From: Gautieria morchelliformis
Lineage: Eukaryota > Basidiomycota > Agaricomycetes > Gomphales > Gomphaceae
Direction: 5' to 3'
Assembly: GCA_015179125.1 (NCBI GenBank)
Contig: WHVA01000350.1
Coordinates: forward strand, 59,692-123,691
Length of the DNA: 64,000 nt
The translations under genes and the position numbers were made by a program. The notes below the pieces were generated by a model. It was not told the DNA's origin. It did no database searches and saw nothing but the letters and a program-made list of their open reading frames with translations. Each line of letters begins with the position of its first letter. The stretch's first letter is position 1. Shown here in pieces: positions 5,766 to 55,752 of the stretch.

Positions 5766-7119
5766 TGTGTAGGAACCAGCTTTCTAGTTTAAAAATCTCA
5801 AAAAAAGCATTAAAAAGTCTGTAAAAACCTTTTTCCCATCTTAACATCAGCCAATACACGCAGCTTTGATGGGGAACTGTTTTTAGAATATTCCTTGAAT
5901 TTTCTTGCATTTATTCGCCAATTGTCCTGACCTCCTTGGCTCAAAACTGCTTTATTGTGTTTGACAAAGGCTATGAACCCATGAGAGTCCATAACTTTGT
6001 CATCGGCGCTCAATTTCAAACTCCGACCGGAGCGATCCTCGAACGCGCTTATTCAGAGCCGCACGTCCTCAAACACCCACAACTCTGACACTTTGGCTCT
6101 TTCAATCTCAGCTGGTGAGATTGGGAATATCCGGCGCAGCTTACACAAGCTTGTACACTTAAATATAGTTCAAACCCAGCAGGCACATGACTTGCCTCAT
6201 AGCAACCATGGCTGTGTAAGGCTGTGTGCAAGACTGCCCAATGATATGCAGAGCCAAAACTAGGGTGCATAATCAAGCAATCTTATTGGATGCTGAGCCT
6301 CCAAGCTTAGTGCCACAACCCCTGAAATAGGACCCTTGACATCATAGGGCTGTGCAGGGCTATGCAGGGCTATGCAAGGCTATGCAGGGCTGTGTAAGGC
6401 TATGCTGGGCAGTGCAAATCAGGGAAGGTGATTGGCTATCTATTCTTAATTTCCTTGCACAAACACACCACTATAGTTACGAGGGTGTGTTTTAGCTGCG
6501 CAAATATTTACTTATGACATCACTCGCCTAATAGATAGAAGCTCCCCATTTTACATAATCCTGTGTAATTTACAATATAAAAGGAGGCCATTCTGACCCC
6601 CTAGGAGAATCATCCAATCTAGCAATCTACTGCTTCTATCCTACACGTGACTCGTGTGATTTGCATCTTACTAAGCTGCTAACCCAGCTAGGGTTATTCA
6701 CTTACTTTAGTGTCTAATTCCTTGTTAAGTAGATACTTTTCTGCTTAGCCACCTAGACTAATCCTCCGGGTGTAATTCTACAGAGTGAGTCTGTCAATTG
6801 ATAGTCTTGCCATTCGCAATCCAATACCCGAGAGAGTTGATCAGTTGATTTTCCTGGTTAATATCTTTCACAAGTCAATTCCTGTTACTTGTAAAAGCCG
6901 CTTTAGATTCTATTCTTTGCCTCTCGTTTTATTGCTGTGCACTGGTAGATTATCAGGGCAATCCATTTATAAACTCGCCTGCTAAGTACATTCCTTTATA
7001 TTTTGGAATACGCTTGGACCCCGATAGTGTCCTTGAACCTACAGTCTTTTAGTTTATTGTTCAGTGCTGCTAAGAAACACATTGCCTTCCATCCGTATTA
7101 ACTTGGACTAGTTTTTACG
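5766..7119 (+). repeat. 3' LTR of Gypsy-1
   Basis: Starts TGTGTAGG right after the polypurine tract and ends TTTTTACG (a decayed CA end). Its 3' half aligns with 1-494. A TATA-like AATATAAAAGG lies near 6575, with the window-start sequence equivalent lying just downstream, fitting transcription start near 6610. At about 1.35 kb the LTR is long, partly because of an internal minisatellite at 6345-6415. Its 3' end lies about 146 bp upstream of the ankyrin exon at 7266. The same LTR end sits in the same relative position in the inverted copy (36606-36656). Confidence 0.85.
6345..6415 (+). repeat. Minisatellite, about 11-bp unit GGCTATGCAGG
   Basis: About six imperfect tandem copies of an 11-base unit inside the Gypsy-1 3' LTR. 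Units differ by A/G changes. A weaker run of the same words occurs just upstream (about 6205-6235). Confidence 0.85.
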
Positions 7120-7582
7120 TGGATTGCAACCAAGGTACAAATATTAAATTATTTCCGGAGTTGTGCTGCAGCATTGTTTAATATTCTTTGAGTCTCATAA
7201 ACGACACGTTCTGATAGATTGAAGTGTTAGCAATAACACCAAAGTCTTGAAGGGTTCCAAAACAGCAGGTGGCAGTGTCACTGGGTTATGCTAAAATTGC
7301 CCGGTTGCTCCTAGAGAAGGGTGCAGATGTGAATTCCCAGGGAGCACATGGTAAGAGTGCGCTGGAGGTGGCAGCATTCTGGGGTTATGATACAATCGTC
7401 TGCTTGCTCCTGGAGGAGGGTGCAGACATGAATGTGCAGGGAGAAAGCAATATGAGTGCACTGGAGGCAGCTGCATCACGAGGTCATGACACAATTGTCC
7501 ACTTGCTCCTAGACAAGGGTGCAGACGTGAATGCTCAGGGAAAACACTATGGGTGTATGCTGGAGGCCGCAGCATCAGGGGG

Positions 7583-9075
7583 TGTTACAATACGATCCTT
7601 CGTAAGGTTGACCAAGCTCGGGGGCGAAACCCGAGGTAAGGTCCGAGGTTATGGGGCGAGGTTCTGATGGGGAAGTTGGAGAGGGACTAGGCTTCAGCTT
7701 ATGTGCTGTGCCGACCCTACGCACGAGTCCCAACTTCGGAGGCAAACAAATAAGAGGCGATGTTTGGCTTAAGAGGCGAGGCTTAGAAACTAACTAGGAA
7801 TCAAAGTATACGATAGTTGATTTTCAGACTGAGGAGTAGGAATGCATACAAGGGGGTTTATATACGAGCGAGGGTACGAATAAGGCGCGAGCAAATGTGG
7901 GGGAAGGTCAGGGCGAGGTCAGGGTGAGGTAATATATGGATGATGTGTGATAGAGCAGAATCAGTAACTAAGGGGATTCGGGCATGGGATCAAGGTCGGA
8001 TATGAGCTCTAGCTCTGTTAGAATAAATGGATAGCTATATCAAACATTATTCTAAGGTCTATACAATCGTATAACTGAGCTAACATCTGGGAGAAATAAT
8101 CCATGCACCAGTCACAGTGCTTGCCCTGGAAAGCAGGCACCTGGGCCCTGGTCAGAAGAAATATTGCTATGGGACGAATAGTCCCATACAGGGACATCGG
8201 AAACGATGGAGATTACAGTATACAGTCCTATCTATGGACGTACTGAATAGCTACCTCAGGAGAGAGGTACAGAGATGGCAAATGCCTTGCCAAGGCTGCT
8301 GTAGGCACACAGCACAGGACACACAAGTTTTCTATTCTATTCTATTCCCCTGACCAGCTCCACTGATTACAAGCTGTATTACATGTTGAAAGGGGCTTTG
8401 TACATTGCTGCAAGGTCCCAGCTTAGATACTTGTCAGTAGGACAAGTATCCCCATCATTGTTCCTGCTCCACAGCTGTATGCAGCCTGTGGAGCATTTCC
8501 ACATTATCCTGACCCATTCTATCACTATCTTGAACACTGGTAGTCACTACTATTTTAGTATAAGTAGCTACCATAAATTTACAAACAAAACATCCAGAAT
8601 ATTATCCAGAACAATCCAGAATTGTTGTTTCACCTCCTGAAGTAACTGTAGACTTGTTTGATAGCTACAGAGCTTATTTCTTGATAGATTTCTCTAATTC
8701 TTTGTTGAGAGTCTACTATAACTGGCTACACTATACTGTTCCGAAAGCGAGAGCTTCGGACCCCTAGTTCCTCTGTTCTCACCTGTTTCTTCCTCGACTC
8801 AGTCACGTGACCTACATCAATCAGTGACGCACTCGCCCCACAGAGCTTAGTCAGCTCACACATATACCGTGCACAGGGGTGCATGAAGAGTCCCCACTCC
8901 CTGAGTCATCAAATATATCAATTCTGATATATCTGATCTATTATTCCTAAAAAGCTCTAGCTCGGGCTCGGGCGCAGGATTAGAATCACAAGTACTTGGG
9001 CACGAGTATCACAAGGCTCAGGCTCGGAAGAAAGGTTATACCGGTCAGTAACCGGCCAAAGGCCGGGTTCTTACA
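7583..9075 (-). mobile_element. Solo LTR (family D) inserted in the ankyrin exon, TSD GGGGG
   Basis: Begins TGTTACAATACG and ends TTCTTACA, flanked by GGGGG at 7578-7582 and 9076-9080. A TATA-like GTTTATATACG at about 7855, in reverse, suggests minus orientation. There are no coding domains. A further repeat (family C, about 8083-8862) appears nested inside. The related copy at 56042-56721 shares the TGTTAC start and the GGGGGTTT-TATA block. Confidence 0.8.
8083..8862 (+). repeat. Family C LTR-like repeat, copy 1 (nested in the solo LTR)
   Basis: Shares a long block with 14009-14343 plus its continuation past the Copia insertions (18850 onward, 23699-23757): TTTGATAGCTACAGAG, then the GTTGAG...TCACTATC region, then CACGTGAC and a GGCTTAGTCAGC-like end. 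Both copies end CACACA. The 5' boundary is approximate and I could not confirm a target duplication. It contains a TATA-like AGTATAAGTAG near 8560, as an LTR would. Confidence 0.55.
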
Positions 9076-11297
9076 GGGGGTCATGATATGATCATCCAGT
9101 TGCTCCTAGGGAAGGGCGCAGATGTCAATGCCCAAGGAGGACGCTATGGGAGTACTGCACTGCAGGAAGCGGCATCATGGGGTGATGATACAACTGTCCA
9201 GTTACTCATACAGAAGGGTGCAGATGTGAATGCTCTGGGAGGACACCATGGGAGTGCACTGCAGGAGGTGGCATGTCAGGGTCATGAGGCAACTGTTCGG
9301 CTGCTCATAGATAATGGCGCCAATGTCAATGCTCAAGGAGGAAAGTATGCTTGTGCACTGCAGCTAGCAGCTGTGAAAGGTCACAATGTGATTGCCTCAT
9401 TGCTGCTTGAGATGGCTGCAGCGGCCCCTCATGTGAACCCAGGTACAGTGTTGCCAGCGTTGAAGTTGGTGCGTTGCTGGCCCTGCTTCATCCCTACATG
9501 GGCTCACTGCCCTCTTTGATAACAGAGATCAGGATGGGTAGCCACTTTCAGCAGAGTAGATGTGGATTTGATGGATACACTAATAAAAGATCGTTTTTAC
9601 CGGTGAGTTGGGGTAGCTGAGTTTGTTCTTGTGGAGCTTGATCAGTGGCTGGAATAAGCTTTGATTTGATTCATCTCACTTGTTTCCTGTCTGTATAGCA
9701 GTTCCATACTAACCTCACACCATCTAGCAACATATACTCCGTCCACTTCTCAGCTGATGGGCACTACCTCGTGGCTGGGACCGAACGAGACACGGCAGAG
9801 ATATATGACACGGTCACTGGGGAAAGGACATGGTGAGTGATTGCCTTGTCTTTCGCTTTGTCCCCCTGCACATTGTCCACACTTGAACATAGTGTGCTCT
9901 TCCATGATGACCATCACCTCCCTGATGGTATGTCCCATATCCATGTCAGGACTGTGCGCTTTAGCACGGACGGGCACCACCTCGCAACGGGCCTAGCAGA
10001 CAACGAGGTTAGGGTGCGTGTTTTCACATGTTGTTGTGCACTGATTCTTCACTGACCCCTTTGTCTACTTATTCACACAATTCCACACTCATCCATGGCC
10101 TATGTGTTTCCTTCACCTGCACATTTATCCCTCACCCCTGCATATCCCATCACCATGCCACTGTCAGATATGGGACATTGCGGCCGAGTGCATCATCTCC
10201 ACCTGCAAGTGTCATAAGCATCAAGCTACCTCCCTTGACTTCTCATGTGATGGTGACCTCCTCGTTTCCGGCTCCCTGGACAACACCGTGTGCATCTGGG
10301 ACATGAAGACCAGGTGGCATCATAAGACGTTGTCGATCACAGTACCAGTGGATGTGCGTGTTATCATCCCTTGTCATCGCGTGTGGCATGCTGATGCACA
10401 TTGTTGTGCTTATGCCGTGTGTTGACACCTGGGTATGGTCTGTTTTGTGTTGGTTTTGGCTGGCAATATGTAGCTCAGCGCCAGTGTATTCTCTGTTGCC
10501 TCCTCTCCCGATGGGCGCCTAGTCGCCGCGGGCTACCACGACGCTATTGTGCGCCTCTGGGATGTCCAAACCGAGCAACTTGTCCAGTGCCTCGTGGGTC
10601 ACACTGACAGGGTGCTCAGTGTGGTGTTCACAGCTGATGGAAAGGGTCTTGTCAGTGGGAGCAGTGATCAGACACTGAAGCATTGGGATTTGAGGCCATT
10701 GCTAAGGAATATGCAGAGAAGGGCATCGACGCATCTGGGTGAAGTGGGTGTAGAGGGCAGCCAGAATGAAGGAGTGTGCGTCTGTACGGTCAATTTTACG
10801 GGACATACGGTGCGTGGCAGGCCACTCCACCTGCGCTTCTTTTTACCCTCCTTTGCGCACTTTCGGCGCTTGTAAATCTTCACTCTTCCATGATGATACT
10901 CATTATTGTGAATACAGGGTGTGGTGCTCTCCATCGCCGTATCCCATGACAACCAGTGGGTCGTATCAGGTTCAGATGACTGGAGCGTGCGGTTCTGGGA
11001 CCTGCGCACCAGGGAAGCGCTACTCATACTGCATGGACACAAGGATTCCGGTACGTCCCAGCCCATTTGTATCATGTGTGCGTGCGACTCCGAATTTCTC
11101 ATTGCTCAATGTGTGCATGTATGCACCTACCTCTAGTTCTTTCTGTCGACCTGAGCCAGGAAGAGGGCATGCTCGCTACCAGTGACTCGCGCGGGGTCGC
11201 GAAATTATGTGCGCCCCTGAAACATGTTAGAGGTACAATCACAGAATATAGAAGCAAGTATGGACAATACCTGTACTATATTATTATATATGGTTGA

Positions 11298-13843: not shown

Positions 13844-14343
13844 GATTTGAGAATATCATCCACAGTACACACACTCAATTAGCTGCCCCACAGAAGAGGC
13901 ACAGAGACAGCAGCCCCATCACCAAGCCTAGCATTTATGCTAGGCAGGGCAGATTTAACTCCATTTTTCTATTTGAATTCCATGACACCATTGGCTGACT
14001 ATTATCCTAACATCATGTGGACAGGGGCTTTGTATGCTAAGTACAGATCTCTATTTCAAAGCCTAAGTAATCCTGATACTATCTCCATCACCCCATGACT
14101 TTATGACTATAAATTAGTCACCCCTTAGTTAAAAGTAGCTTTTCGACCCATCTGTCCAATATCTTGAACACTAGTAGTTACTATCAACATAGTATAAATA
14201 GCTAGTACAAATGTATGAACGAAATAATCGAGAATCGATTATTCTACCCCCTGAAACTACTGTGGTCTTGTTTGATAGCTACAGAGTCCAAATCTTGATA
14301 GTTTATTCCAAATCTTCGTTGAGGGTTCACTATCACTGGTTAC

Positions 14344-14566
14344 TGTAGAACGAAGGAGTAAATATGATCTGATATTCTACCTTGATCTCAAGTAGATCGT
14401 TCCTTTATATACAAATTATAATGTCCATTATATTACCAATCCCTTCGAGCTGCTGTGCCGATGCGATGCCGGCGCACCAGCAACCCGGGGTCGAGAGCGA
14501 TCTCGAACCTCCGGCTAAATGCGTGCCGGCTCTGCCTCGGCGGTGTTATCGTCCCGATTACTAACA
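14344..14566 (-). repeat. Copia-1 3' LTR
   Basis: TGTAGAACG...CTAACA on the plus strand. The polypurine tract lies just outside at 14567-14576 (CTCCCCCTCA on plus). The gag-pol stop lies inside this LTR. A TATA-like stretch (TTATATACAAAT on plus) is near 14405. Confidence 0.95.
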
Positions 14567-17500
14567 CTCCCCCTCAGCGAGAAGTCCCTTCGGTAAAATC
14601 CCAATTTCCCTAATAGATACCTATGTTGGTGCATGTCTAATCCCTTTGTAAATATGTCCGCTATGTTCTCCTTCGTTGGTACGTATGTAAGTGATGCCTC
14701 GTGAGAGGCCACTTTCTCACGGATAAAATGATATGCGACATTGATGTGTTTGGTACGCGCATGATACGTTGCGTCATGCGATAGTGTAATGGCGCCTAGA
14801 TTGTCTGATCGAAGTGACGTGGGCTGGGTTTGATCGATTCCAAGTTCCTCGATGAAACGTCTCAGCCAGATTAATTGCTTGGCGCCCTCGGTAAGTGCCA
14901 TGTATTCGGCCTCCGTGGTAGATAGCGCGATCGTTCGCTGCTTCTTCGAGCTCCATGCAATGGTTCCTCCTCCTAGCATAGCTACATAGCCACTAATAGA
15001 TAGTGCGTCGTTTCTATTAGCATAATCTGAGTCGACAAATATTTCGAGGTCGAGACCAGCGTCTCGTCGGAATGTTATGCCGTCGTCACGTGACCCTTTG
15101 AGGTACCTGAGCGCGTGTTTGATCGCCGTCCAGTGCTCGGGTCCATAAGTAGTAGTGAATTGGCTCAAGTGTTGTACGGTAAAAGCCAAATCAGGTCGCG
15201 TGCTGAGTGCTGCATACATGAGTGATCCGATCGCTTTGGCATAGGGTACTTCGGCAGTTGGACCTGTTGAGTCCATGGGTGTCGTGAGTTTGATCATTTT
15301 ATGCAGGGGTGTAGATACCGAATGAGCCGTTGTCATGTTGAATCGATCGAGTATGATGTCGATGTAATGTCCTTGAGACATGATTAGCGTTCCCTCATCC
15401 CTATTCCTCTCAACTCTAATTCCCAAGATTTTCTTCATTTCTCCTAAATCTGTTAAGGGGAATTTCCCATGAAGCTCCCCCTTGAGCTTAATCATCCCTC
15501 CTTTGGAGTCAGCAAATAGTCCAAAGTCGTCCACATATACTGATATGACTTCGATTGAGTCCTTATCTTGTCTGATGTAGACGCATTCATCGGCTGTACT
15601 TTGATGAAAGCCGAGGTCGAGTAATAATTTGCGTAAGCGCTGATGCCAAGCTCGTCCCGATTGTTTGAGTCCGTAGAGCGCTCTGTATATTCTTAGAACG
15701 CGTCCAGATCCATCATCAAATCCGTCGGGCTGGCGCATGTAGATCTCCTCATCTATAGTTGAATTGAGGTAGGCGCCTTTGACATCCATCATTTCGATTT
15801 CCCAATCGAGTGTGTTTGCGATCGCCAATAGAACACGTAGTGAATCGAATTTGACCACGGGTGAAGTTATCTCGTAGTAGTCCATTCCTGGCCTCTGTGT
15901 GAATCCTTGAGCCACGACCCTTGCTTTAGCCTTATCAAATTGTCCATCCGGTTGCGTTTTGACGGCGTATACCCATCGGCAACCGATAGCTATTCGTCCG
16001 GGTGGTAGTTCTGTTAATTCCCATGTTCTTAACGTTTTGTGTTGTTCCATCTCAATTTCCATCGCTTTCTCCCAGATCGGCGCATCATCACGTGATACCG
16101 CCGCTCTGTAATTCTCAGGTTCAGTGACGATTTCTCTCGTTATGTAAACCTGCTCGGTGCGTCCTGAATTATTCAGTTTCCGGTAATCCGGCCTTTGAGT
16201 GATACGCGCGCTCCGTCGGATCTCTGGAGCTGGCGCTTGTTCAGGTGGATCAGGAACGGGTGTCGTGTGGGGTGATGACGTCTGTGGGGTAGATGTGATC
16301 GGGTCCGGCACATGCTCGCGCGGTGAGTTCTCCCCCTCGAGCGGTGCCGTGTCATCATCGTCGTTGTCTGGGATAGGGTAGAGTCGGTTGTCATTTTCGT
16401 CGAATGTGATATTTCTCGAAATTTGAACATGTTTTGAGGCTTTATTGTAATACCTCCATGCTTTTGCATGTTCTGCTACTCCGACGAAGATGTGTTCTTC
16501 TGCCTTTGGATCAAGTTTAGCTCGTCGTTGATCCGGCACCATAACCCAACAATTTGTCCCGAATTCCTCTAGACGTGCTATGTTCGGCTTCTTGCCGAAT
16601 AGTGCCTGGAACGGCGTTGCGTCATCTCCAAGCGCTCGCGTGGGTGATCGGTTTTTGATGTAACACGCGTAAGCCACGGCCTCGGGCCAGAGTATTTTAG
16701 GCAGGTTCTTGGCAAATATCATTGCCCGTGCGTGCTCGAGTAAGGTTCGGTTGAGTCGTTCGGCGATTCCATTCTGGGCTGGGGAGTATGGAGCTGTGGT
16801 CTCCATGATAATGCCATATTTTGCACAAAATTCCTTGAAATTCTTATTGACATATTCCCCTCCATTATCTGAGCGAAACCTCTTCAGTTTCTGACCTGTT
16901 TGGGTCTCGAGGAATGCCTTGTACGTCTCGAAGTGTTTGAGCGCTTCGTCTTTGGTGCTCCCAAAATAGATGACCGTGTACCTGGATTTGATGTCCGTGA
17001 AAGAATAAAAATACTTTTCACGTGATGGTCCCTCGGTCTGGGCAGGTCCCCATACATCGGATACTGTCAGGTCACCGACCTGTTCTACAGTGTCCTCGGC
17101 TCTTTTGGGGAATGGCTCCACATGCCGTTTGCCTTGTATGCATGCCTTGCACTGGCTCGGCTCGTTTGACTCGTCGATCTCGAGTCCAGTAACTAGGTCG
17201 TTAGATTTCAACAATTTTATGGAGTTTATGTTGACGTGCCCTAGTATCCTGTGCCATTTATCCCATGACCGTCCCTTTGCCGCTGCGGCAAAGTCCCGTG
17301 CCTCGACTGATCGAGTGACCCGTGCCTTCATACAGAACAGCCGCCCGCGCTTCTGTCCCTGTGCAAAGGTAACTCCGGCGCGTGATTTGAATTCGACGCC
17401 GGTGCCTGAAAAAGTGGCTGTGTTGCCCTTATCAGTCAGACGCCCTACGCTGATAAGGTTGTTCGGCGCATCCGGTGCATGCTTGACGTCACGTAGTTCG

Positions 17501-18537
17501 ATCGTGTTCGTCTTGGCACCGATCTTGAATTCCATGTATATAGTGCCTCGGCCTTGTGTATGTAGTACCGCGCCGGGTGAAATTCCTTCGATTTCCGATG
17601 GTTCCTCGGCATAGCTAGCGAAATCATTTCGGCTTCGAGCTATATGTGTTGTTGCCGCTGAATCGGCTAGCCAGTCGGATGCAGATATAGCACTGTATGC
17701 TACCTCCTTAGATACAAATGCGAAGTCTTTTTCTTCTGCTTGTTTGACTGTTTCTTTGTTCCCTGATTTGAACCATTTCGGTGCTTGGCCTTCCTTGCCG
17801 CCACCTTTCGCCCAACAGTCCTTCACGTAATGACCCTTCTTGCCGCAATTTCGGCACTTTCCCTTTGTTGCTCCTGAGTCATCTTTCCTGGTCCTGTGAC
17901 GTTGCTGCGCCTTAAGCGCCGTCTGCCGTGCCGATCCAGCTTTCCGTGCTCGATCCTCATCGAGGACCCGAGCTATTAATATATCAGCTGTTGTCCCGGC
18001 TCCACTGGCGTTTACTGCCGTAATAAACGCCGACCAAGAATCTGGTAATGACGTCAGCAACGTGTTCGAGAACTCGGTGTCACTGATGTAATGCCCCCGC
18101 GCATTCAATTCCTGTTGAATGCCGCGGAGCTTGCGTACGTGCTCCTCCATGTTCGCGCCGTCCTCGGCAAGCGTCCGGAAGAAATCTCTTCGGAGATTTA
18201 CAATCCCCACTGCTCCCTTAGATTCGAATATAGCTTGTAGACTAGTCCATACAGCAAACGCAGACATCGTCTGATTGATGTAAACTAGTTGTTCATCGGC
18301 AACTCTGAGGCAAATCTCTTTTCTAGCCTTCTTGTCCTTCTTTCTCCAATCGTCGATCTCCTGCTGTTCGGTCGCAGTGACGTTGTCGGCATCTGCCGGT
18401 CTCGGTTCCGTCTCCCTGCCGATAGCCACGTCCCACAGATCTGAGTCATCGAGTATCCACTCGAGCCGCCGGCGCCATGCCGCGTAATTGTCCCCGTTCA
18501 AGGGATCGATCTTGTACGTGTTATTGCTACTCGACAT
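14515..18537 (-). CDS. Copia-1 Gag-Pol polyprotein
   Basis: 1340 residues, ATG at 18535-18537, no interruption. Gag (UBN2-like) covers about 1-215. A CCHC knuckle has C228, C231, H236 and C241. The protease active site is DSA at 292-294, where DSG is more usual, though DSA also occurs in Copia proteins. The integrase zinc finger begins WHRILGH, and the core has DVWGP, RSDNGGEY and AQNGIAERLNR for the D,D-35-E triad. RT follows with ARVVAQGFTQ and the YVDD box near residue 1000. RNase H ends the protein (VDSDYA, LSTTEAEYMAL). The order PR-IN-RT-RH is diagnostic of Ty1/Copia. The C-terminus reads about 50 bases into the 3' LTR. It would produce particles, cDNA and integration. Confidence 0.95.
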   Translation of the reverse strand: MSSSNNTYKIDPLNGDNYAAWRRRLEWILDDSDLWDVAIGRETEPRPADADNVTATEQQEIDDWRKKDKKARKEICLRVADEQLVYINQTMSAFAVWTSLQAIFESKGAVGIVNLRRDFFRTLAEDGANMEEHVRKLRGIQQELNARGHYISDTEFSNTLLTSLPDSWSAFITAVNASGAGTTADILIARVLDEDRARKAGSARQTALKAQQRHRTRKDDSGATKGKCRNCGKKGHYVKDCWAKGGGKEGQAPKWFKSGNKETVKQAEEKDFAFVSKEVAYSAISASDWLADSAATTHIARSRNDFASYAEEPSEIEGISPGAVLHTQGRGTIYMEFKIGAKTNTIELRDVKHAPDAPNNLISVGRLTDKGNTATFSGTGVEFKSRAGVTFAQGQKRGRLFCMKARVTRSVEARDFAAAAKGRSWDKWHRILGHVNINSIKLLKSNDLVTGLEIDESNEPSQCKACIQGKRHVEPFPKRAEDTVEQVGDLTVSDVWGPAQTEGPSREKYFYSFTDIKSRYTVIYFGSTKDEALKHFETYKAFLETQTGQKLKRFRSDNGGEYVNKNFKEFCAKYGIIMETTAPYSPAQNGIAERLNRTLLEHARAMIFAKNLPKILWPEAVAYACYIKNRSPTRALGDDATPFQALFGKKPNIARLEEFGTNCWVMVPDQRRAKLDPKAEEHIFVGVAEHAKAWRYYNKASKHVQISRNITFDENDNRLYPIPDNDDDDTAPLEGENSPREHVPDPITSTPQTSSPHTTPVPDPPEQAPAPEIRRSARITQRPDYRKLNNSGRTEQVYITREIVTEPENYRAAVSRDDAPIWEKAMEIEMEQHKTLRTWELTELPPGRIAIGCRWVYAVKTQPDGQFDKAKARVVAQGFTQRPGMDYYEITSPVVKFDSLRVLLAIANTLDWEIEMMDVKGAYLNSTIDEEIYMRQPDGFDDGSGRVLRIYRALYGLKQSGRAWHQRLRKLLLDLGFHQSTADECVYIRQDKDSIEVISVYVDDFGLFADSKGGMIKLKGELHGKFPLTDLGEMKKILGIRVERNRDEGTLIMSQGHYIDIILDRFNMTTAHSVSTPLHKMIKLTTPMDSTGPTAEVPYAKAIGSLMYAALSTRPDLAFTVQHLSQFTTTYGPEHWTAIKHALRYLKGSRDDGITFRRDAGLDLEIFVDSDYANRNDALSISGYVAMLGGGTIAWSSKKQRTIALSTTEAEYMALTEGAKQLIWLRRFIEELGIDQTQPTSLRSDNLGAITLSHDATYHARTKHINVAYHFIREKVASHEASLTYVPTKENIADIFTKGLDMHQHRYLLGKLGFYRRDFSLRGSVSNRDDNTAEAEPARI

Positions 18538-18609
18538 CGTTGATCGGTATTGAGTTGGTGGAGTATAGGGTGTAGTTGGAGTAAGCTAGATTTGTGGTAG
18601 TTTAGTTAT

Positions 18610-18626
18610 GCGCGGGGCCCATAACC
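18610..18626 (-). promoter_or_regulatory. Copia-1 primer-binding site
   Basis: Directly inside the 5' LTR the minus strand reads GGTTATGGGCCCCGCGC. The same word follows the Copia-2 5' LTR. It is complementary to an initiator-tRNA anticodon stem-loop rather than a tRNA 3' end, the arrangement known for Drosophila copia and yeast Ty5, which use a half-tRNA primer. Confidence 0.7.
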
Positions 18627-18849
18627 TGTAGAACGAAGGAGTAAATATGATCTGATATTCTACCTTGATCTCAAGTAGATCGTTCCTTTATATACAAATT
18701 ATAATGTCCATTATATTACCAATCCCTTCGAGCTGCTGTGCCGATGCGATGCCGGCGCACCAGCAACCCGGGGTCGAGAGCGATCTCGAACCTCCGGCTA
18801 AATGCGTGCCGGCTCTGCCTCGGCGGTGTTATCGTCCCGATTACTAACA
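18627..18849 (-). repeat. Copia-1 5' LTR
   Basis: Reads the same as 14344-14566 over all 223 bp by eye. As the 5' LTR of a minus-strand element it would drive transcription toward lower coordinates, through the gag-pol start at 18537. Confidence 0.95.
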
Positions 18850-18932
18850 GTTACTCTATACTACCTTAAAAGCGAATGCTTTTGATTTGGTTATCCCTTG
18901 GATCGACACCATCCTTCTGTCAACACGGTCAC

Positions 18933-19170
18933 TGAAAATGTCTTTGGGCTAAAGACAGTTATCTCAGTGAACGGCTATTTCACTGAGTATATAGTTAAGT
19001 ACCTAAAGACAGTTATCTATGGGGATATTGTAAGTAAACTGTCTGTTCAACGACAGGCAAGTCTCACCTCAGTGAACGGCTATTTCACTGAGGTGAGACG
19101 ATGTTCTACCGAGCTTATATAATAGCAACATGGTCCGTGCGTTCTCTGCTTACTAACACTAACGCTAACA
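18933..19170 (-). repeat. Copia-2 3' LTR
   Basis: Contains two copies of the 20-base word AGTGAACGGCTATTTCACTG, each a small hairpin because GTGAA and TTCAC pair, and two copies of CTAAAGACAGTTATCT. A TATA-like GCTTATATAATAG lies near the right end. Confidence 0.95.
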
Positions 19171-19177
19171 CTCCCCC

Positions 19178-22100: not shown

Positions 22101-23456
22101 GTTAGCCGATTCTGTAGGTGGTGCGTGTTCCACCTTGTACAGTCCATCTCTGAGCGGTATCTTGCCCACAGTTGTGCCTTTCGCGTCTCGGATTGTGCAG
22201 TGTTGATCGCGTAGCAATACGGCGAATCCGGCTTTATCACATCGCACTAGCGATATCAATGTGAATGCCAAGTCCTGGCAGTAAAGTACGTCCTTCAGCG
22301 TTATGTGCGTCATTGTTTTCCCATTCGGGATGACCACACGCATGTCTCCAATGCCGGTCACGGTGAAGATCGTCTGTTCGGCTGCGGCAATTCTACGGGG
22401 TGGGATCTCTTTGAAGGTGGTGAACCGATGGCGATCTGGGGACATGTGAGTCGAGGCTCCCGAGTCGTAGACATCGACTTCGGTTCCTTTGTGCTTGCTA
22501 CTCTCCCGAGAGAGTATGTGACCGGCGAATGTGGTGGTGAAGGCCCACTCGCTGTCTTCGGTCACGGCATTTACTGACTCGCTCCCCTTCTTTTTATCAC
22601 TGTCCCTCTCCTTTTTCCCTTTTGATCTACAATCAGCTTTTATATGCCCCTTTTTTCCGCATTTCCAGCACTCAATATCAGACTTCCCGGCATTGTTAGA
22701 GCTGTCGGTGCATCTGCCTTTTCCACGACCCTTCGCAGCTGTGAGTGCGCTCTCGGTAGCCTTGAGCTGCTGTTCCTCGATCTTGAGCCGCTCGAATTCA
22801 TCCAGTAGACTCTGAACGACCGTATCGGGTGTGAGTGTGACTTGCGCGTGCGTAGCTGACAACGAGATAGCGTTGATGAGTGGTCGGTACCCTTTTGGCA
22901 ACGATCCTAGAATCACAGTGACAAGGTCGTCGTCGGTAAGGCCTGCATCCATTCCAGCTAACTGCTCTTGCATTTTCATGAGAGCTTCGAGGTGGGTGCG
23001 AACATTCGACTCGTCCTCACACTTCATCTCGTACATCCTGCGCCGTATATCGACCTTGACCGTGAGAGCTCTACTCTCGTGCTTTGCACATATCGCCTCC
23101 CAGATTTCCTTCGCTGAACTGAGCTTCCGAACCTCTATTAAGAGTGAGTCCGGTATTGTCGTGAAGATCTGTGCAGTAATTAAGGCCTCACGTTGGTGAT
23201 ATTCATCCCAACGCTTCTCTGCCCTCTCGAGTGCCTGCTCATCGTCCTCATCCAGGACCTGGTTCGGAGGGTACGTTGGGATCGGGGCTGGTATCCGAGC
23301 TGTGCCATCGAGGTGTCGTAGCACACCCTTGTTTGCCGCGAGGGTAGCCCTCGTCTGTATCTTCCACGTTACCCAGTTCGACCCATCCCGGGCGAGCTTG
23401 GGAACTGCGAAGGACTTTGCGCCGCTGGTAGGTACTATACTATCAGCGGGGCCCAT
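19178..23456 (-). pseudogene. Copia-2 Gag-Pol, two frames split by a small deletion in RT
   Basis: The first frame (23456 down to 20520, 978 codons) holds Gag, a CCHC knuckle (CWKCGKKGHIKADC, near residue 265), protease with YDSGAS, the integrase HHCC finger (HRRMGH ... CTSC) and the D,D-35-E core (SDVWGP, SDRGGEY, EQNGVAERLNR). The second frame (20623 down to 19178) holds RT from GFTQVEG onward, a DVDD catalytic box and RNase H (LSTMEAEYIA). At the join near 20555 the conserved R-LVAQ-GFTQ motif lacks the LVAQ codons (12 bases replaced by one), shifting frame. The rest of both frames is clean, so this is the only lesion I see. Confidence 0.9.
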
Positions 23457-23460
23457 AACC
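23444..23460 (-). promoter_or_regulatory. Copia-2 primer-binding site
   Basis: Minus strand reads GGTTATGGGCCCCGCTG immediately inside the 5' LTR, the same half-initiator-tRNA type as Copia-1 although the two elements are otherwise different. Confidence 0.7.
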
Positions 23461-23698
23461 TGAAAATGTCTTTGGGCTAAAGACAGTTATCTCAGTGAAC
23501 GGCTATTTCACTGAGTATATAGTTAAGTACCTAAAGACAGTTATCTATGGGGATATTGTAAGTAAACTGTCTGTTCAACGACAGGCAAGTCTCACCTCAG
23601 TGAACGGCTATTTCACTGAGGTGAGACGATGTTCTACCGAGCTTATATAATAGCAACATGGTCCGTGCGTTCTCTGCTTACTAACACTAACGCTAACA
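23461..23698 (-). repeat. Copia-2 5' LTR
   Basis: Reads identical to 18933-19170 base for base by eye. The gag ATG at 23456 sits only a few bases downstream of this LTR, so the primer-binding site overlaps the start of the coding frame. Confidence 0.95.
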
Positions 23699-26190: not shown

Positions 26191-26233
26191 TGCTCTCTCT
26201 TTCTCTCTCGCTCTCTCCCCGAAGCTTGCCCCC

Positions 26234-27290: not shown

Positions 27291-27319
27291 ACGGAGAGGA
27301 GGATCTAGAACAATTGCAG

Positions 27320-27437: not shown

Positions 27438-27477
27438 TGAGAACCTGAAGTGAATCGTGACCGAAAATTAAACGGTC

Positions 27478-32215: not shown

Positions 32216-35200
32216 TCAGCGACAAGATGAGTTTCCTGTCATTAGTGACAGGCACGCACATAATTTCACGTGCCCATCCCGGATGCCGGTAGCGAACATC
32301 CCCCCCGTCTGGCTCACGTCGACAGACCAAACTACAGGTGGGTGCATACACACATACATTGAGCAACCAGAAATGAGTCGCACGCACTCATGATACAAAT
32401 GCGCTGGGACGTACCGGAATCCTTGTGTCCATGCAGTATGAGGAGCAGTGCTTCCCCTGTGCGCAGGTCCCAGAACCGCACGCTCCGGTCATCCGAACCC
32501 GAGACAACCCACTGGTTATCGTGGGATACGGCGATGGAGTGCACCGCATCCTATATTCACAGTAATGAGTATCACAATGAAGAGTGGAAGATTGTTAGAG
32601 AATCAAGCAAGATGATAGCAGGCTCCAACTGCATAAGGAGCTAGTGTACAACGCATAGAAAACTAATGAACCGTATGATGTCAACATGACGTCGCTCGCA
32701 TTCCAACACACCTCCTCGAGCGACGGCTTCTCGAGTGACAGAAAGTCGAAATGTAATTAGAATAAAGAAGCTGCGATTTTATCGCCCGTTTCCTCCTTCT
32801 TCGGTTCTGGACAATTGGACTTGTAATGACCTGGTCGTCCTGTTTCTTCATATACAGGAATTCACGGCGAAGGGAAAGGCGGGTCGCAAATCCGCAAGCG
32901 CAATGGACTTGTTCAAGGTTCTCCCAAATCTCCGTTGGGTTACTGAACCGAGCATGAGGAAGCTGGGACGGTTCAATGTGGAGAATGATTTTCGTGCGGG
33001 CCACTTGTTGCTTCTTAACATAAGCACAAATGGCCTGGAGCTGTCAGTGCCCATGGGGCGACGCTCAGTCCCATCAACCACATCCCAAAGGTCCTTCTCA
33101 ATGAGCAGGGCCTCCATCATATAACGCCAGTCCACATAATTCTTTTCATTCAGCTTCTCAAACTGAGTCTCCGGCATGATTGCAAGTGATTTGAGCTTTC
33201 AGTAGGCTCAACAATGGTGCACGCTTTCGGCAGGCGTGACTTTCAACAATTGAGCTTTTGGTAGGCTCAACAACAGTGCACGCTTTCGATAGGCGTGTCT
33301 TTCGATGCATGAGCACGCTTTCGTTAGGCGCGATTTTCGAGTGTCGACTTGGGCCTCGACAGGCAAGGGGAGCACGCAGTTGTGTTAGATAATCAAGCAA
33401 GGTGATAGCAGGTTCCAACTGCGTAAGGAGCTAGTGTACAACGCGTATAAAACTAATGAACTGTATGATGTCAACATGACGTCGCTCACATTCCAACAAA
33501 GATTTACAAGCACCAACAGTGCGCAAAGGAGAATAAAAGGAAGCAGAAGTAGAGTGGCCTGCCACGCACCATATGTCCCATAAACTCAACCGTACACACA
33601 CACAAACCATCGTTCTCCCCACTCTTCTCTGCGGCTGAGGCCGCGTCATCTGTACCGACTTCATACCCCCTCTGCGCACTCTTTAGCAATGGCCCCAAAT
33701 CCCAGTGCTTCACTGTCTGGTCCCAGCTCCCACTTACAACACCCTTTCCATCCGGTGTGAACACCACGCTGGACACGCCATCAGTGTGACCAACGAGGTG
33801 ATTGATGAGTTGCCCTGTCTGAACATCCCAGAGACGCATGATACTGTCGCGGTAGCCTGCAGCAACTAGGCACCCATTGGGAGAGATGGCAACAGATAAT
33901 TTGTTGCAGCGCTACATATTGCAAGCCAAAACCAACCATACCCAGGTGTGAACACACGGCATAAGCACATCAGCACAACAGCACAACAAGGTGCATCAAC
34001 ATGCCATACACAACAATAGATGATAACACACACATGCGCTGGTCCTATGACTGACAGCCTCTTGTGCTGCCTGGTCCCCATGTTCCAGATGCACACAGTG
34101 CTGTCCCAGGCACCAGAAATGAGGAGGCAGCCATCACATGAGACATCAAGGGAGGTAACATAATCCTTATGACCCTCAAAGGTGGAGAGGATGTGCTTGC
34201 TGGCAATGTCCCATATCTGACGGTGGTGTGTGGTCACAGGGTACATGGATTGCAAGGGATAAATACGCAGGTGAAAGGAAACACATAGTCCATGGACGAT
34301 TGTATTGTAGGAGTCAAGAAGTAGGCAATGGGGTAAATGATGTGTCAGCCAATGATGTGAGGAAACACGCACTTGTCATGACCGGTTTATTTCTCCTACC
34401 CCGTTACCTTCATGATCCCCCTCGTCACTCCCTAGCATCTTCGTCAGAGTTCGCCGCACCTACCGACCACTTCTCCTCTACACCCACTCTACTCGTTGTT
34501 CGCCCCATCCTCCGAACCGCTATTCGCTGCTCGCCCATTTCGTGAGCAGGCACGCCATCAAATATGATCGATACCAGTCACCCGGCATGATGGTTCATCA
34601 TTGGCCCCATCGTCTTCTTAATCCAACCCCATTGGGTGTTCGTATGGTCAAGGTGTGTTCGCAGGGCGTTCCTTCCATAGGTCGTGCGGGATCAACCCAG
34701 TAAACGAAGATTCCGTGCAGGGTAGCATGTATGCGGGTCCCAAGACATGGCTTTGTCCATAAGTGCTTTCGCCCCCTTTACTCTCCGTCGTTTCACGTTC
34801 GCATTCTTCCCTCACTCTATTGTATGTTTATTCCATCTCCTTAGTATCATGACTGCACACCCCTATCTAACCCTGACTCTTGACGGCCCCTTTCCTATTC
34901 GATGATACCGTACGAGCATTCGATATAAGTAGTTTACATTCACATGTATATTCTCCAGTTCAATTATCATACGTTGTCCATCTTGTGCAAACTTGACCTC
35001 GCTGTGATCATCGTCTTGAGCCTCTCCTTGAAGATTTCTATCTTCAACCAGCCAAGGACTTAGGCATCACTGGTGAGCTCTCATACTTCATCTTTGTTAC
35101 CTTAGCCTTCAAACTACTTTCTGTGCTGTTGGCGAAGGGCTCCGAAGGAGCACCTTCGCCAGCGAAGGGACCGTCGAAACTTAGACAGCCCTTCCGCGAT

Positions 35201-36452
35201 ATCTTGCACGTTACGTCGTCAAGTGCTGCGAGCTGTTTCGCTACGACTGTAGACAGGGCGAGCCCCGTTCGGGCAACCTCTTTGTTTCGTGAACATTCAT
35301 CGGTTCACTTATTCGCCGAACGGCATACTTATTCGCACAAGTTATTCGGGCATTCGTTGTGTTCACTAATACACGATATTAACGCCTAAAAACCAATCTT
35401 GACAGCACTCTAATCTTGCCATCGGTACCGCCTGTCGCAAGGAGTGTCCCATTGGGGCTGAAACACATGATTTCAATGCGGATGTGGCCGAACATGGTAT
35501 TACAAATGAGCACACTGGGGCAAGTGTGGTCAATGTGTGGGCAAGATGAAGGCAGAAGGGAGAGGAGATAAAGTGAAATAGGGAATGGGCTACCACTCAC
35601 CATGTCCTTACCGTGGTGGTTGTGTCATATATCTGCGCAGACTGTTTACACCCAGTTGCAAGGTAGTGCCCGTCGGCTGAGAAGCAGATGGATGATATAT
35701 GGCTGGAAGGTGCAAGGTTAGTATAGAATGGCCAGACAGAGGGATGAAGCTTGATCCAGCCATAAAACTCAACAAAACAAAACAAAACAAAGGGCCCAAA
35801 TCAGCTTGGCCATGACAACTGACCACCTTTCATGATCATGCTCCAATGCATGCACCAAATCAACATCTACTCGACACTGCAGGTCATGCTTGCTGAGAGT
35901 GGCCACCCATCCTGCTCCCTGTTATCAAAGAGGGGAATGAGCACATGGGGGAGTGGAAAGATGTCTAGTACAGGGCTGGGAATGCACCAACTTCAACTCC
36001 GGCAATGTCATATTTGGATTCACCTTAGGGACCAGCACAGCCATCTTGAGCCGCAATGAGACAATCTCATCAAGACCATTAACAACTGCCCCCTGCAGTG
36101 CACCACAATACCTTCCTCCTTGAGCATTGAGATTGGCACCCTTCTCTATGAGCAGCTGAACAGTACTATGGGGACCCTCTACCGCCGCCGCCTGCAGTGC
36201 ACTCCCATAGCGTCCTCCCTGCACATTCACATCCACACCCTTCTCTATGAGCAACCGGACTGCTGTATCATGACCCTGTGATGCCACCGACTTCAGGGCA
36301 CTCCCATAGTGTCCTCCCTGCACATTCACATCTGCACCCTTCTCTACGAGCAAAAGGACAATTGTATCATGACCCCGTGAGGCCGCCGCCTCCAGCACAC
36401 TCCCATAGTGTCCTCCCTGCATATTCACATCTGTGCCCTGTGCTATGAGCAA
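32216..36452 (-). CDS. Ankyrin-repeat / Tup1-like WD40 fusion gene, minus-strand copy
   Basis: Deduced exons, in transcription order: 36452-36024, 35918-35827, 35702-35601, 35514-35409, 34216-34034, 33911-33570, 32550-32415, 32331-32216. The first encodes about 4.5 ankyrin repeats (LLIEKGADVNVQGGHYGSAL). The second gives GWVATLSKHDLQCRVDVDLV, the stretch preceding the propeller in Tup1. Then come seven blades: FSADGHYLATGCKQSAQIYD, FSPNGTLLATGGTDGKIR, SGAWDSTVCIWN, AAGYRDSIMRLWD, SGSWDQTVKHWD, SGSDDRSVRFWD and ATGIRDGHVKLC. All GT...AG introns keep frame and I see no stop within these exons. Two elements (34374-35404, 32593-33498) sit in introns. NACHT exons at 43321-44645 lie upstream in the same direction, separated by transposons, so the 5' part is probably disconnected. 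Related to Tup1 corepressor propellers and NACHT-ankyrin receptors; biological role unknown. Confidence 0.8.
32593..33498 (-). mobile_element. Short non-autonomous Copia (TRIM-like), TSD AAGAT
   Basis: Two 116-bp LTRs (32593-32708 and 33383-33498, TGTTAGA...CCAACA) flank 674 bp. AAGAT flanks the element at 32588-32592 and 33499-33503. It lies inside the intron between blades 5 and 6 of the Tup1-like gene. The internal part has only a gag fragment and a run of imperfect repeats built on GAGCTTTCAGTAGGCTCAAC and GCACGCTTTCG (33185-33340). Confidence 0.92.
32848..33177 (-). pseudogene. Copia gag fragment inside the TRIM-like element
   Basis: The N-terminus reads MPETQFEKLNEKNYVDWRYM followed by LLIEKDLWDVVDG, the standard opening of Copia Gag (UBN2). 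The frame breaks soon after, and matching gag-like codons continue in other frames (TRALWENLE-type words near 32900). Not functional. Confidence 0.8.
34374..35404 (+). mobile_element. Solo LTR, family A, TSD GCACT
   Basis: TGTCATGACCGG...AATCTTGACA, 1031 bp, GCACT at 34369-34373 and 35405-35409. It is inserted exactly over the 5' splice site after blade 2 of the minus-strand Tup1-like gene; the duplicated bases include the last exon base and the first four intron bases. Nearly the same length as the Gypsy-2 LTRs. Confidence 0.95.
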
Positions 36453-43320: not shown

Positions 43321-44645
43321 CTGGTCAAATTGCAGCAGGTATGCCAGACATGTCTTCGCGATGAATACATGTGCAATCTTTTCGTTAAAATAATAACATG
43401 AAATCCCAGTTGTCCTTGTCCGAAGGTGTTCCGACATCAAATATTCTCGCACATAAATGTGGGCCAGTCTGATCTCTCCTGCTTTAGTGAAGAGTACCCC
43501 ATCATCATTGTTAAAATCATCCTCATTAAAGCTGTCATAGTCGTAGTCATAGTCATAGTTGTTGTTGTGGTCATAGTCGTCATCTTCAGCATTGCTGCCC
43601 TCCAGGAATGTAATGGTGACCAGACTAGAGCATATGGTCAATATGTCTCCTGGGTCCCGAAGCTGCCGCTGGCAGTCAAACAGAGGTCCTTCTCTTGCAT
43701 CAGGATCTGTAGCGAACACTTCCAAAGCCTCATCTGTTGATATCGTGCGCACAGAGAATGAAAGCCACTGCAGCAAACTCAGAGCATCCCGCCTATCATC
43801 CTCATCGATAGCAGCCAGGATTCGATCATATGTCTCATTAAGTGTCTTTGGGAGACATGTGAGTGCTTTCTCGAGTGCTGCAGGAGTTCTGCATTTCCAA
43901 AATGCATCCAGTTGACAGACAGCCCATCGAAACCTTGTCATTCTGTCAGAAACCATGCACATGCAGGTAAATGACCACTCACATCCCATGTGCACAATCA
44001 ATGAAGGTAGTCATCATCATCTCTTTCTCACCTGCTGACCACATCCTGAACTTGATATCATCTTCAAGTGTTCTCGACACGTGAACTCGGATGTCGCTGT
44101 CAACAAGATTCTTGTCCATTGGTACCTCTTGTGAAATCAAAGCACTGAGCGCTTCTTCAATGTCTGGCTCTTTCCAACTTGTAGCTAGCAAGTGTAACAA
44201 CCCAAACTCCCAATCATGGATATCTCTGATCACCGTCAGAAACCTGGATCATTCCGGGCACTCATCAAGCACATCAAACACGATATACACGGCCTGGAAG
44301 CTGCTGATGATTGTTTTTAAGGTTGACATCAGATCCTCTTGACCTGGGTCTCGGTTTACACCACCCTCCTCATTCATAGAGAATAGTGACTCCAGGGCAT
44401 GGGGAGTGCTCGCGCATTGTACAGACAATTGCCTGATCGGATATTGAAGGACGGCATCTGGCTGGGTCCCCTCGTTGCTAAAATCAAAGTAAAAATATGC
44501 CACTCCGAGGCAAGGGTCGGAGCTGCAGTAAAGTGAAAGTTGATGGATGATGGTCGAGCTGTTCACATTCATTCGTTAGCAGGATAGTATGGTGGTCATA
44601 CAAATTGATATGCCCACCATAGGATAGTTTTCCCAGCGCCAGCTG
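43321..44645 (-). pseudogene. NACHT domain exons of an NLR-like receptor
   Basis: Transcription order: Walker A region (44642-44618), intron 44617-44559, exon 44558-43983, intron 43982-43934, exon 43933-43321. Removing the first intron (GTGGGC donor, GCTAAC branch point) restores GAGKTILCSTIIHQL, the P-loop and following helix. Walker B is VYIVFDVLDECPE. After the second intron come FRWAVCQLDAF, LPKTLNETYDRIL and the winged-helix-like LSLLQWLSFSVRTISTDEAL, then IRLAHIYVREYLMSEHL, all typical of fungal NACHT-ankyrin proteins. One in-frame TGA at 44249-44251 replaces the Arg after DECPE (CGA to TGA). A stop lies three codons before the Walker A residues in that frame. The LINE tail truncates the 3' end at FDQ. 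It would bind ATP and oligomerise; here it is broken. Confidence 0.88.
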
Positions 44646-46350
44646 TTGCAGTTTATCAGCGAAGAGCACAATCATGCGGCTAAGCTCACGCACGTATACT
44701 GTGGAGCCAAAGGAAAGAACAGTTGGAATACGAGCGACATCAACATGACAGTCAAGATTGGTTTTTAGGCATTAATATCATGTATTAGTGAACACAGCGA
44801 ATGCCCGAATAGCTTGTGCGAATAGGTATGCCGTTCGGCGAATAGGTGAACCAATGAATGTTCACAAGATAGGAGGGTTTCCCAAACGGGGCTCACCCTA
44901 TCTACAGTCGTAGCGAAATGGCCCATGGCACTTGACAATACAACGTGCAAGGTCTCACGGAAGGGCTGTCTAAGTAGCGACAATCCCTTCGCCGGCGAAG
45001 GTGCTCCTTCGGAGCCCTTCACCAACAGCACAGAAAATAGTTCGAAGGCTAAGGTAACGAAGATGAAGTATGAGAACTCACCAGTGATGCCTAAGTCCTC
45101 TGCTGGTCGAAGATAGAAATCTCCAAGAGAAGGCTTAAGATGATGATCACAGCGAGGTCAAGTTTGCACAAGATAGACGACGTATGATAATTGAACTGGG
45201 GAATATACATGCGAATGTAAACTACTTATATCGAATGCTCGTAAGGTATCAGCGAATGGGAAAGAGGCCGTCGTGAGTCAGGGTTGGATAGGGGTGCGCA
45301 GTCATGATACTAAGTAGATGGAATAAACAGACAGTAGAGTGAGAGAAGAGTGTGAATATGAAACGACGGAGAGTAAAGGTGGCGAAGGCACCTATATATG
45401 AAATCATGTCTTGGGGCCCACATATACACCGCCCTGCACGGGTTCTTCATCTGCTGGGTTGATCCCACACGACCTACGGGTAGGACGTCCTGCGAGCGCA
45501 CCCTGCTCATATGAACACCAAAAGTGGGTTGGACCGAGAAGCTGATGGAGCTACTGACGAGCCATCATGCCAGGTAGGGATTTCGATCGTGATTTGATGG
45601 TGTACCTGCTGGCGAATGATGCGAGCAGCAAGTGGCTGTTCGGCAAAATGCAAGGAAGGGCCAATGGAGATGACATAGGGCAGGAGTGGTTGAGGTGGAG
45701 GGCGAAGCCAAGCGAACATGGAGGAGAAGTGGCGAAAGGGGAAATGGGGGTAACAAGGTGTAGGAAATACACACGTCATGACAATCCGATCATAGGAACA
45801 TTGTCACGACCGGTTTATTTCTCCTACCGCGCTACCTCTATGTCGCCCCTTGTCACTCCCTAGCATCTTCGCCAGAGTTCGCCGCACCTACCGACCACTT
45901 CTCCTCTACGTCCACTCTACCCGCTGTTCGCCCCATTCTACAAACCGCTATTCGCTGCTCGCGCATTTCGTCAGCAGGCACGCCATCGAATATGATCGAT
46001 ACCATTCACCCGGCATGATGGTTCATCATTAACCCCATCATCTTCTTAATCCAACCCCATTGGGTGTTCGTATGGCCAAGGTGTGATCGCAGGACGTCCC
46101 TTCCATAGGCCATGTGGGATCAACCCAGTAAACGAAGAGCCGTGCAGGGTAGCGTGTATGTGGGCCCCAAGACATGGTTTTGTTCATAAATGCCTTCGCT
46201 CCCTTTATTCTCCGTCGTTTCATGTTCGCATTCTCCCCCCACTCTATTGTATGTTTATACCATCTACCTAGTATCATGACCGCGCATCCCTATCCAACCC
46301 TGACTTGTGACAGCCTCTTTCCTATTCGCTGATACCTTACGAGCATTCGA

Positions 46351-54901: not shown

Positions 54902-55645
54902 ACTAGGTTATAACAAACACAAGTGACATTCAACATACGCAATTTGTGCTGCTTCACTGATTGGTTAATCTCAGTACTCTGTTCCTTCAAGGCTTTCAAT
55001 CCGTCCTGCACCTCCAGTATTGTTCCGGCGACCTCCCCAATGCACCGGTCGGCCCGTTCAATTGACTCTTTGATCCCGACACTCTGTCCCTTCAAGGCTT
55101 CCAAACCACCAAGCATCTCCAGCTTCACACTATCCAGGTGCAATTTCGCCTCATCAACTGACTGGATCATCTTAGCAGTCTTTTCATCCAAGGCTTTGAC
55201 ACCAGTATCAATCTCCAGGATCAAGTGTCTGTCAAAACAATTAGGATCAGGTCAACATATAGCAGGTGCAACGCACGTCTGATCTATGCCCATGGCATTC
55301 ATCAACAAGCCTTGGAGCTTGCCTATACCGTCGACAGTCTTATTAAACTCGGCCTCGTTTAGTGGCCACATCAATGCTTGCATGCCACCTTTGTGCCCAA
55401 GATGCTTTTCCAGCACGGCCAGGAAACTGTTCATATCGCCACGCAGCGCCGCCTGGATACTCTCCATGTTGCCATCCAGCACTATCTGGATACTCTCGAG
55501 ACTCTCCATGTTGTCATCTGTTGCCACCTCGAGACACCCCATCTCGATGCTCTCCACGTTCCCCTCTGATGCCACCTCGATAGTCCCCATCTCGTGACTC
55601 TCCGTCTCGCCACCCAACGCGGCCCGGAGACTCCTCATCTCACGA
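54902..55645 (-). CDS. Coiled-coil exons, possible N-terminal part of the NLR-like gene
   Basis: Exons 55645-55277 and 55228-54939 join in phase across a 48-base intron (GTGCGT donor, CTGATCC/TTTTGACAG end) and give about 220 residues. The first half has several repeats of an I-E-x-A/M-x-G-x-M-E-S pattern (GNVESIEMG, DNMESLESI, GNMESIQAAL). The second is helical and charged (VKALDEKTAKMIQSVDEAKL, GLEALKGQS, GLKALKEQS). A further GTATGT...CTAG intron (54938-54903) leads into the Copia remnant. Same strand and direction as the NACHT exons 10 kb away, with only transposons between, so they may have been one gene. No known domain recognised. Confidence 0.5.
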
Positions 55646-55723
55646 CTGCAATGATCAAGAAGATCATTTAAAGCTAACAAATGAGAGGGTGTCTCCAATC
55701 GGGAAGTCCCTCCTCTCTCATGG

Positions 55724-55752
55724 TTTTTTTTTTTTTCTTTTTTTTTTTTTTT
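55724..55752 (-). repeat. Poly(T) tract (poly(A) on minus)
   Basis: Twenty-nine bases, all T except one C. The lysine-rich N-terminus of the minus frame across it is an artefact of this tract. Confidence 0.9.

Follow-up and report, generated by a model that had tools for sequence, protein, structure and literature searches.

Fungal nucleotide-binding oligomerization domain-like receptors (NLRs) that end in ankyrins, WD40 repeats or TPRs are well known (PMC4986451, PMC9815663; statements on these and the following papers refer to excerpts of them). In the HNWD repeats of Podospora, four codons per repeat (7, 9, 25 and 27) are described as positively selected and are said to lie atop the propeller (PMC2873952), and NLRs of the Sordariales carry a CHK2-derived kinase regarded as a putative integrated decoy (PMC12258605). 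Here we describe an NLR family of the basidiomycete Gautieria morchelliformis, two members of which lie in a stretch of 64,000 nucleotides of contig WHVA01000350.1 (assembly GCA_015179125.1, positions 59,692 to 123,691, forward strand), which is called the window throughout. An earlier note, made from the letters of the window, had taken 7266..11297 as an ankyrin array spliced to the propeller of the corepressor Tup1. The fusion is borne out by the introns shared with TUP1 and by an annotated full-length protein, JB92DRAFT_3008675 (P0129, 1322 amino acids), but the unit is a complete NLR and not an ankyrin protein. The sequence data make it probable that these genes encode NLRs with a propeller captured from a corepressor that has turned into a diversifying sensor, and that the window copies are damaged members of an expanded family.

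Origin of the propeller

The open ankyrin frame of the first copy in the window (copy 1, 7266-11208, plus strand) starts at 7266, resumes at 9081 after an insert and reads into TGA-TAA before an acceptor at 9525, yet phase-matched exons continue it through the WD40 blades, with TCVL restored behind blade 1, just as the earlier note had read the sequence. The phase-0 join and the acceptor at 9525 were also read correctly, but the donor was not: the junction intron begins with GTGCGT at 9469 (9469..9525, plus strand, 57 bp) and not at 9433. Junction introns are present in 32 fusion loci; 14 of these have a GT at the position of 9433, and 31 have one 36 nt downstream, where it immediately follows the K[L/W] codon; at C583, the sole locus without such an aligned GT, the aligner took another site, and GTGCGT is visible 9 nt before it. 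TUP1 has an intron at the same position and in the same phase, PSELKKE/GTGCGT...CAG/GSDW, the usual form in the fusion copies being PELKL/GT...AG/GSGW. The ankyrin exon of copy 1 ends in the TUP1-like VLPALKL, and P0129 has an annotated splice at the same junction (RPGMKL/GAGW).

The TUP1-derived WD40 exons of copy 1 (9526..11208, plus strand; 9526-9602, 9728-9832, 9893-10013, 10168-10353, 10474-10809, 10918-11050 and 11137-11208) are joined in phase across GT-AG introns. Six introns follow the junction up to 11297, where seven had been counted, and a further family intron has its donor at 11209. In TUP1, the corresponding intron leads to a tiny last exon (WSYTTLQ-like), which a strict pattern found in neither window copy. 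The WD40 blades are thus in frame, as claimed, but not complete as far as 11297: this C-terminus is probably intron read-through, with the last strand of blade 7 missing.

The TUP1 gene of Gautieria was located via Tup_N on C419, alongside a partial tandem duplicate. In the WD40 region the positions and phases of its introns equal those of the fusion copies, with one extra intron in TUP1, and the last phase-1 intron together with the tiny terminal exon is common to TUP1 and 12 of the 24 fusion copies tested (strict pattern). Since intron positions and phases, the junction intron and the tiny last exon are all shared with TUP1, we conclude that genomic TUP1 DNA was captured.

Sequence comparisons pointed to the same ancestor. 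The fusion propellers were 51-60% identical to TUP1 of the same genome, and the closest propeller outside Gautieria among the 120 matches listed was TUP1 of Ramaria rubella. In the propeller tree, a branch with support of 100/100 sets the 31 fusion rows (30 loci plus P0129) apart, with the TUP1s of Gautieria and Ramaria next to them, and the fusion label needs one change; the tree places the fusion propellers as a derived side clade of TUP1, not as its orthologues. A better fit to generic WD40 repeats, named beforehand as a result that would speak against Tup1, was not seen: the copy 1 propeller scored 357 bits with Gautieria TUP1, 336 with Ramaria TUP1 and 246 and 223 with two more distant TUP1s, but only 137-174 bits with a set of seven further WD40 proteins, most of them fungal STAND receptors. 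Yeast Tup1 (1erj) was matched by the propeller in one stretch, residues 28-326, with an E value of 8.7e-49. By summed score several repetitive WD40 chains outranked 1erj for the fusion propeller, and since they did so for TUP1 itself as well, this PDB ranking does not discriminate. TUP1 could not be told from other propellers by whole-genome WD40 matches, generic Pfam propeller models or PDB sequence ranks, but it was distinguished by its introns, by trees and by pairwise scores.

Tup_N matched two genomic sites, C419 (TUP1) and C1048, neither of which is a fusion locus, and Tup_N was not among the 25 families shown for P0129. The second match (C1048:119300-124800) has TUP1-like flanking frames, and no WD40 was recognised by eye in that piece. 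The partial duplicate adjoining TUP1 (C419:38868-50000, P0242) is without the N-terminal part and has a ratio of nonsynonymous to synonymous substitution rates (dN/dS) of 0.38 against TUP1. TUP1-like WD40 exon remnants lie at C653:42700-48600, several kb upstream of the fusion copy on that contig. In other fungi, P0016 and P0023 of Marasmius are large proteins with a protein-kinase Pfam domain and TUP1-like WD40, P0016 having a kinase followed by two TUP1-like propellers; these represent either capture of a TUP1 propeller elsewhere or merged gene models. P0001 (Astraeus odoratus) and P0008 (Gymnopilus dilepis) have two tandem TUP1-like propellers, by eye apparently without the Tup_N part.

The receptor family and its variation

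We searched the genome (122 Mb, 1113 contigs) with a 322-bp junction query and, with 40 of 61 candidates scored, obtained at least 64 matching pieces. These were grouped into 39 loci, some of them matching in the ankyrin part only. With a purpose-written spliced aligner, 35 loci were read, including both window copies and excluding the contig of TUP1. An alignable propeller was kept in 31 of the 35, and 30 of these 31 had ankyrin matches ahead of the propeller in the piece examined. All seven canonical introns were present in 19 loci and at least six in 27. Fifteen propeller copies had neither a stop nor a frameshift between the end of the ankyrins and the last of the long exons, undamaged copies including C444, C304 and C992; four were cut by the end of the piece. 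The four loci from which no propeller was recovered (C204_368428, C689, C504 and C748) were left out of all propeller analyses, the short C484 was left out of the tree, the pairwise analyses and the entropy test, and the near-duplicates C599, C882 and C1023 were left out of the entropy test.

P0129 is annotated with the whole order of NPHP3_N/NACHT, ankyrins and WD40 (NPHP3_N with an E value of 6.3e-40; Ank_2 and WD40 above the cut-off). An N-terminal region and NACHT were also found upstream of the ankyrins at C653, C134 and C278, the latter two with frameshifts there or in the ankyrins, and 20 of the 56 listed NACHT loci had a junction locus on the same strand at most 8 kb downstream (66 of 579 candidates scored). 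The P-loop GIPGAGKT is intact in P0129, P0121 and P0122 and in the spliced DNA of C653, C134 and C278, and in relatives the canonical P-loop is accompanied by a Walker-B-like VYIVFDALDE. A seemingly degenerate P-loop (GIRES...) in three copies turned out to be run-on into an intron; splicing yields GIPGAGKT. The N-terminus, which is helical in the predicted model of the relative P0122, scored 25.8 bits against PF17111 in P0129, just under the cut-off of 27.2, and 10.1 bits in P0122; PF17111 is the family formerly called HeLo-like. Structural comparison of the 840-residue P0122 model gave ankyrin structures only among its matches.

A reading as two neighbouring genes, a NACHT-ankyrin gene and then a TUP1-like gene with its own start, has some support: most other Gautieria models among the matches listed end inside the ankyrins, P0269 is a propeller alone, and C278:114753 lacks an ankyrin match in the piece examined. 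Against this stand the phase-0 junction intron, which is the same or nearly the same in 32 of 35 loci (in 31 its GT immediately follows K[L/W]), the annotated P0129, which spans the junction, and the start of the copy 1 WD40 exon, where no in-frame ATG was seen by eye. We regard two separate genes as very improbable. Annotation supports the fusion for P0129 and gives no sign of it for the other models. In the NACHT tree, all 10 fused rows fall into one 14-row clade (99/96) along with 4 rows that were labelled not fused for want of a matched contig, and the fused label needs 5 changes; this tree is compatible with a single integration but not decisive.

For the gap and pooled dN/dS tests, we picked 11 copy pairs from the tree. 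Frame-breaking gaps numbered 2 in 8607 aligned exon sites and 57 in 6617 intron sites (p 1.5e-18) and were thus about 37 times rarer per site in exons. The median dN/dS was 0.44 (388 pairs, dS below 1), and copy 1 and its nearest relative, C653, gave 0.62 (dS over dN, p 0.017). By these counts the reading frames are mostly kept while the sequence changes fast. Between C882 and C15/C1023, exons at first seemed to have changed more than introns; this was an aligner artefact at frameshifts that was gone on direct alignment, and C15, C1023 and C882 are nearly identical.

The change is not evenly spread. As predicted top-face sites we took, in each blade, the residues flanking the conserved V and D; 26 of 28 were placed and 2 in blade 1 were unplaceable. 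Their spacing equals that of the four HNWD codons under positive selection (PMC2873952). Among 27 fusion copies, entropy was 2.16 at the 26 predicted top-face sites and 1.09 elsewhere, a contrast not reached in any of 20000 permutations, and marks shifted by one to three residues gave a lower contrast. The 15 undamaged copies gave 2.05 at 25 such sites and 0.95 elsewhere, whereas 17 TUP1 rows, including the duplicate in Gautieria, gave 0.36 at the same sites and 0.84 elsewhere. Pooled dN/dS in the 11 pairs was 1.14 at the predicted top-face sites and 0.43 elsewhere, and amino-acid change was greater at these sites (p 3e-16). As far as the predicted face is concerned, the most conserved face of TUP1 is the most variable part of the fusion propellers, and the conservation pattern is reversed.

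This reversal bears on what the propeller does. As an integrated decoy it would still mimic TUP1, and effectors or viral proteins attacking TUP1 would trigger the NLR. The domain does stem from a conserved host regulator and forms one clade, the pattern from which CHK2 decoys were proposed in Sordariales NLRs (PMC12258605), but the sites most conserved in TUP1 are the most changed in the copies, whose identity to their own TUP1 is 0.16 there and 0.59 elsewhere. An integrated decoy therefore appears unlikely; loss of the conserved face makes a faithful TUP1 bait less likely, and a bait surface may lie elsewhere on the propeller. A receptor-corepressor that acts directly on transcription through its TUP1 propeller would agree with the ancestry of the domain. 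However, Tup_N was found only at C419 and C1048, the conserved face is overwritten, and repression by Tup1 needs its N-terminal part, so that we consider this function extremely improbable. Of the original label "corepressor domain", the TUP1 ancestry holds and the likely function does not, given a propeller without the Tup_N part and with the conserved face lost. Our best reading is of a sensor that diversified from the TUP1 propeller rather than of a functional corepressor.

Besides the gene models that end in ankyrins and the five changes on the NACHT tree, several results count against a diversifying sensor. Substitutions were about equally frequent in exons (0.145) and introns (0.153) of the 11 pairs, and in the five closest pairs, two of them hit by the alignment artefact, dN below dS was not significant. 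The dN/dS at the top face was not significantly above 1 (p 0.48), and the offset that puts the 26 sites on that face is predicted from their spacing and from general WD40 structure. In the region examined, 12 of 31 propeller copies had a stop or frameshift, and mobile elements have broken the two copies in the window. The nearly equal substitution rates, the stops and the breakage would also be expected if the family were mostly dead, had spread with transposons and varied by drift. Such decay is nevertheless quite unlikely, in view of the rarity of frame-breaking gaps in exons, the dN/dS away from the predicted top face and the concentration of variation at predicted functional positions.

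The two copies in the window

Copy 1 is the 3' part of a transposon-damaged gene, and neither window copy is whole. Its ankyrin exon, the 5' part of which is removed, is abutted by a high-copy repeat (6620..7265, plus strand) resembling a long terminal repeat (LTR). Of this repeat, 40 copies (of 1149 candidates) were scored, all with 98-100% identity and almost all stopping at query base 645 or 646, so that copy 1 is truncated at its 5' side by high-copy DNA whose end is at 7264/7265. The last 204 bp of the repeat recur in front of copy 2 (36656-36453, 97.5%). The first half of the ankyrin exon (7266..7582, plus strand) is an open frame with ankyrin repeats, for which relatives have Pfam ankyrins; it is split from the second half (9081..9468, plus strand, open frame) by a nested LTR-like insert of 1493 bp (7583..9075, plus strand) with TG...CA ends and GGGGG on both sides, the middle of which (8016-8952) is a high-copy element. 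No NACHT belonging to copy 1 was found within the window, and the 7 kb upstream of the window had no match to P0129.

The inverted equivalent proposed for copy 1, with a junction at 36024/35918, exists as a second copy at 36452-32234, and its junction intron is 35987-35919. This copy 2 lies on the minus strand and has its parts in order, N-terminal region, NACHT, ankyrins and propeller, strewn across 23 kb. The N-terminal domain remnant (54937..55725, minus) was detected by tblastn with 76% identity to P0126 residues 1-204 over 55638-54937, P0121 matching from 55725. NACHT, a split remnant, and the region that follows (43321..44718, minus) matched P0122 with 64-72% in tblastn. The ankyrin exon (35988..36452, minus) is followed by the junction intron (35919..35987, minus) and the TUP1-derived WD40 exons (32234..35918, minus), which have mobile elements inside two of their introns (34374-35404 and 32593-33498).

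Repeats of about 1 kb from one high-identity family lie at window positions 34374-35404, 37023-37931, 38178-39212, 44751-47867, 53432-54462 and 60545-61447; one of the family sits where an exon of copy 2 borders an intron and is flanked on either side by AGTGC. Two copia-type LTR elements (14343-18849 and 18932-23698) are recent insertions, since the paired LTRs of each (224 and 239 bp) share 100% identity. Window positions 26001-28000 have a GC content of up to 61%, long overlapping frames on the two strands and, at 27320-27437, an imperfect palindrome.

A putative route to NLR sensors and its relation to known systems

The gene order, the origin of the propeller, the kept frames and the reversed conservation are supported by the sequences. 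A NACHT-ankyrin gene would have been joined, most simply once, to genomic TUP1 DNA upstream of the PSELKKE/GSDW intron, carrying the TUP1 introns along. The fused gene would then have multiplied, with its frames mostly kept and the predicted binding face of the propeller diversified. Ankyrins and propeller would form the recognition end, binding of a ligand would release the NACHT switch, and the helical N-terminal domain would set off cell death or a response to non-self, in line with proposals for other fungal NLRs. As a tentative extension, the TUP1 propeller was perhaps captured first as a bait for TUP1-attacking factors, its binding face then being overwritten in an arms race that left a lineage-specific dual-sensor repertoire of ankyrins and TUP1 propeller. 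If this is true, the family would offer a fungal parallel to the reported link of plant NLRs with the corepressor TOPLESS.

What appears to be new is TUP1 as a donor for capture by NLRs; ankyrin and WD40 endings of NLRs and capture of a core gene (CHK2) were already known. A fusion of TUP1 with an NLR was not found in the literature searched, a search that left subscription journals mostly outside. The putative route to NLR sensors, DNA-level capture of the propeller of a core regulator, introns included, followed by reversal of its conservation pattern, would escape pipelines that treat WD40 repeats as a canonical NLR ending and class such a fusion as ordinary. Because the ancestor TUP1 and some thirty derivatives share one genome, it becomes testable whether a captured domain serves as bait or as scaffold for new recognition.

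The fusion propellers resemble TUP1 in sequence and introns but are without the Tup_N part, are joined to NACHT and ankyrins and have a changed top face. With the fungal NACHT-ankyrin receptors the family has NACHT and ankyrins in common; the best relatives outside Gautieria among the 120 matches listed are receptors of this kind, with 40-43% identity in the top rows, and of the 120 NACHT relatives in that list P0129 alone shows WD40 families (Pfam column). More such fusions may exist in other Gomphales. The Podospora HNWD family (HET-E, HET-D, HET-R), as described in the excerpts, shares with the Gautieria family the NACHT switch, a C-terminal WD40 propeller and variation at presumed top positions, but has near-identical repeats, whereas the Gautieria propeller is that of TUP1, with introns, distinct blades and an ankyrin array ahead of it. 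The CHK2 NLRs of Sordariales likewise have a C-terminal domain from a conserved core gene that was traced to a single integration (PMC12258605); unlike there, the donor in Gautieria is TUP1, the phylum is another one, dozens of copies occur in one genome, and the conserved face of the donor is lost.

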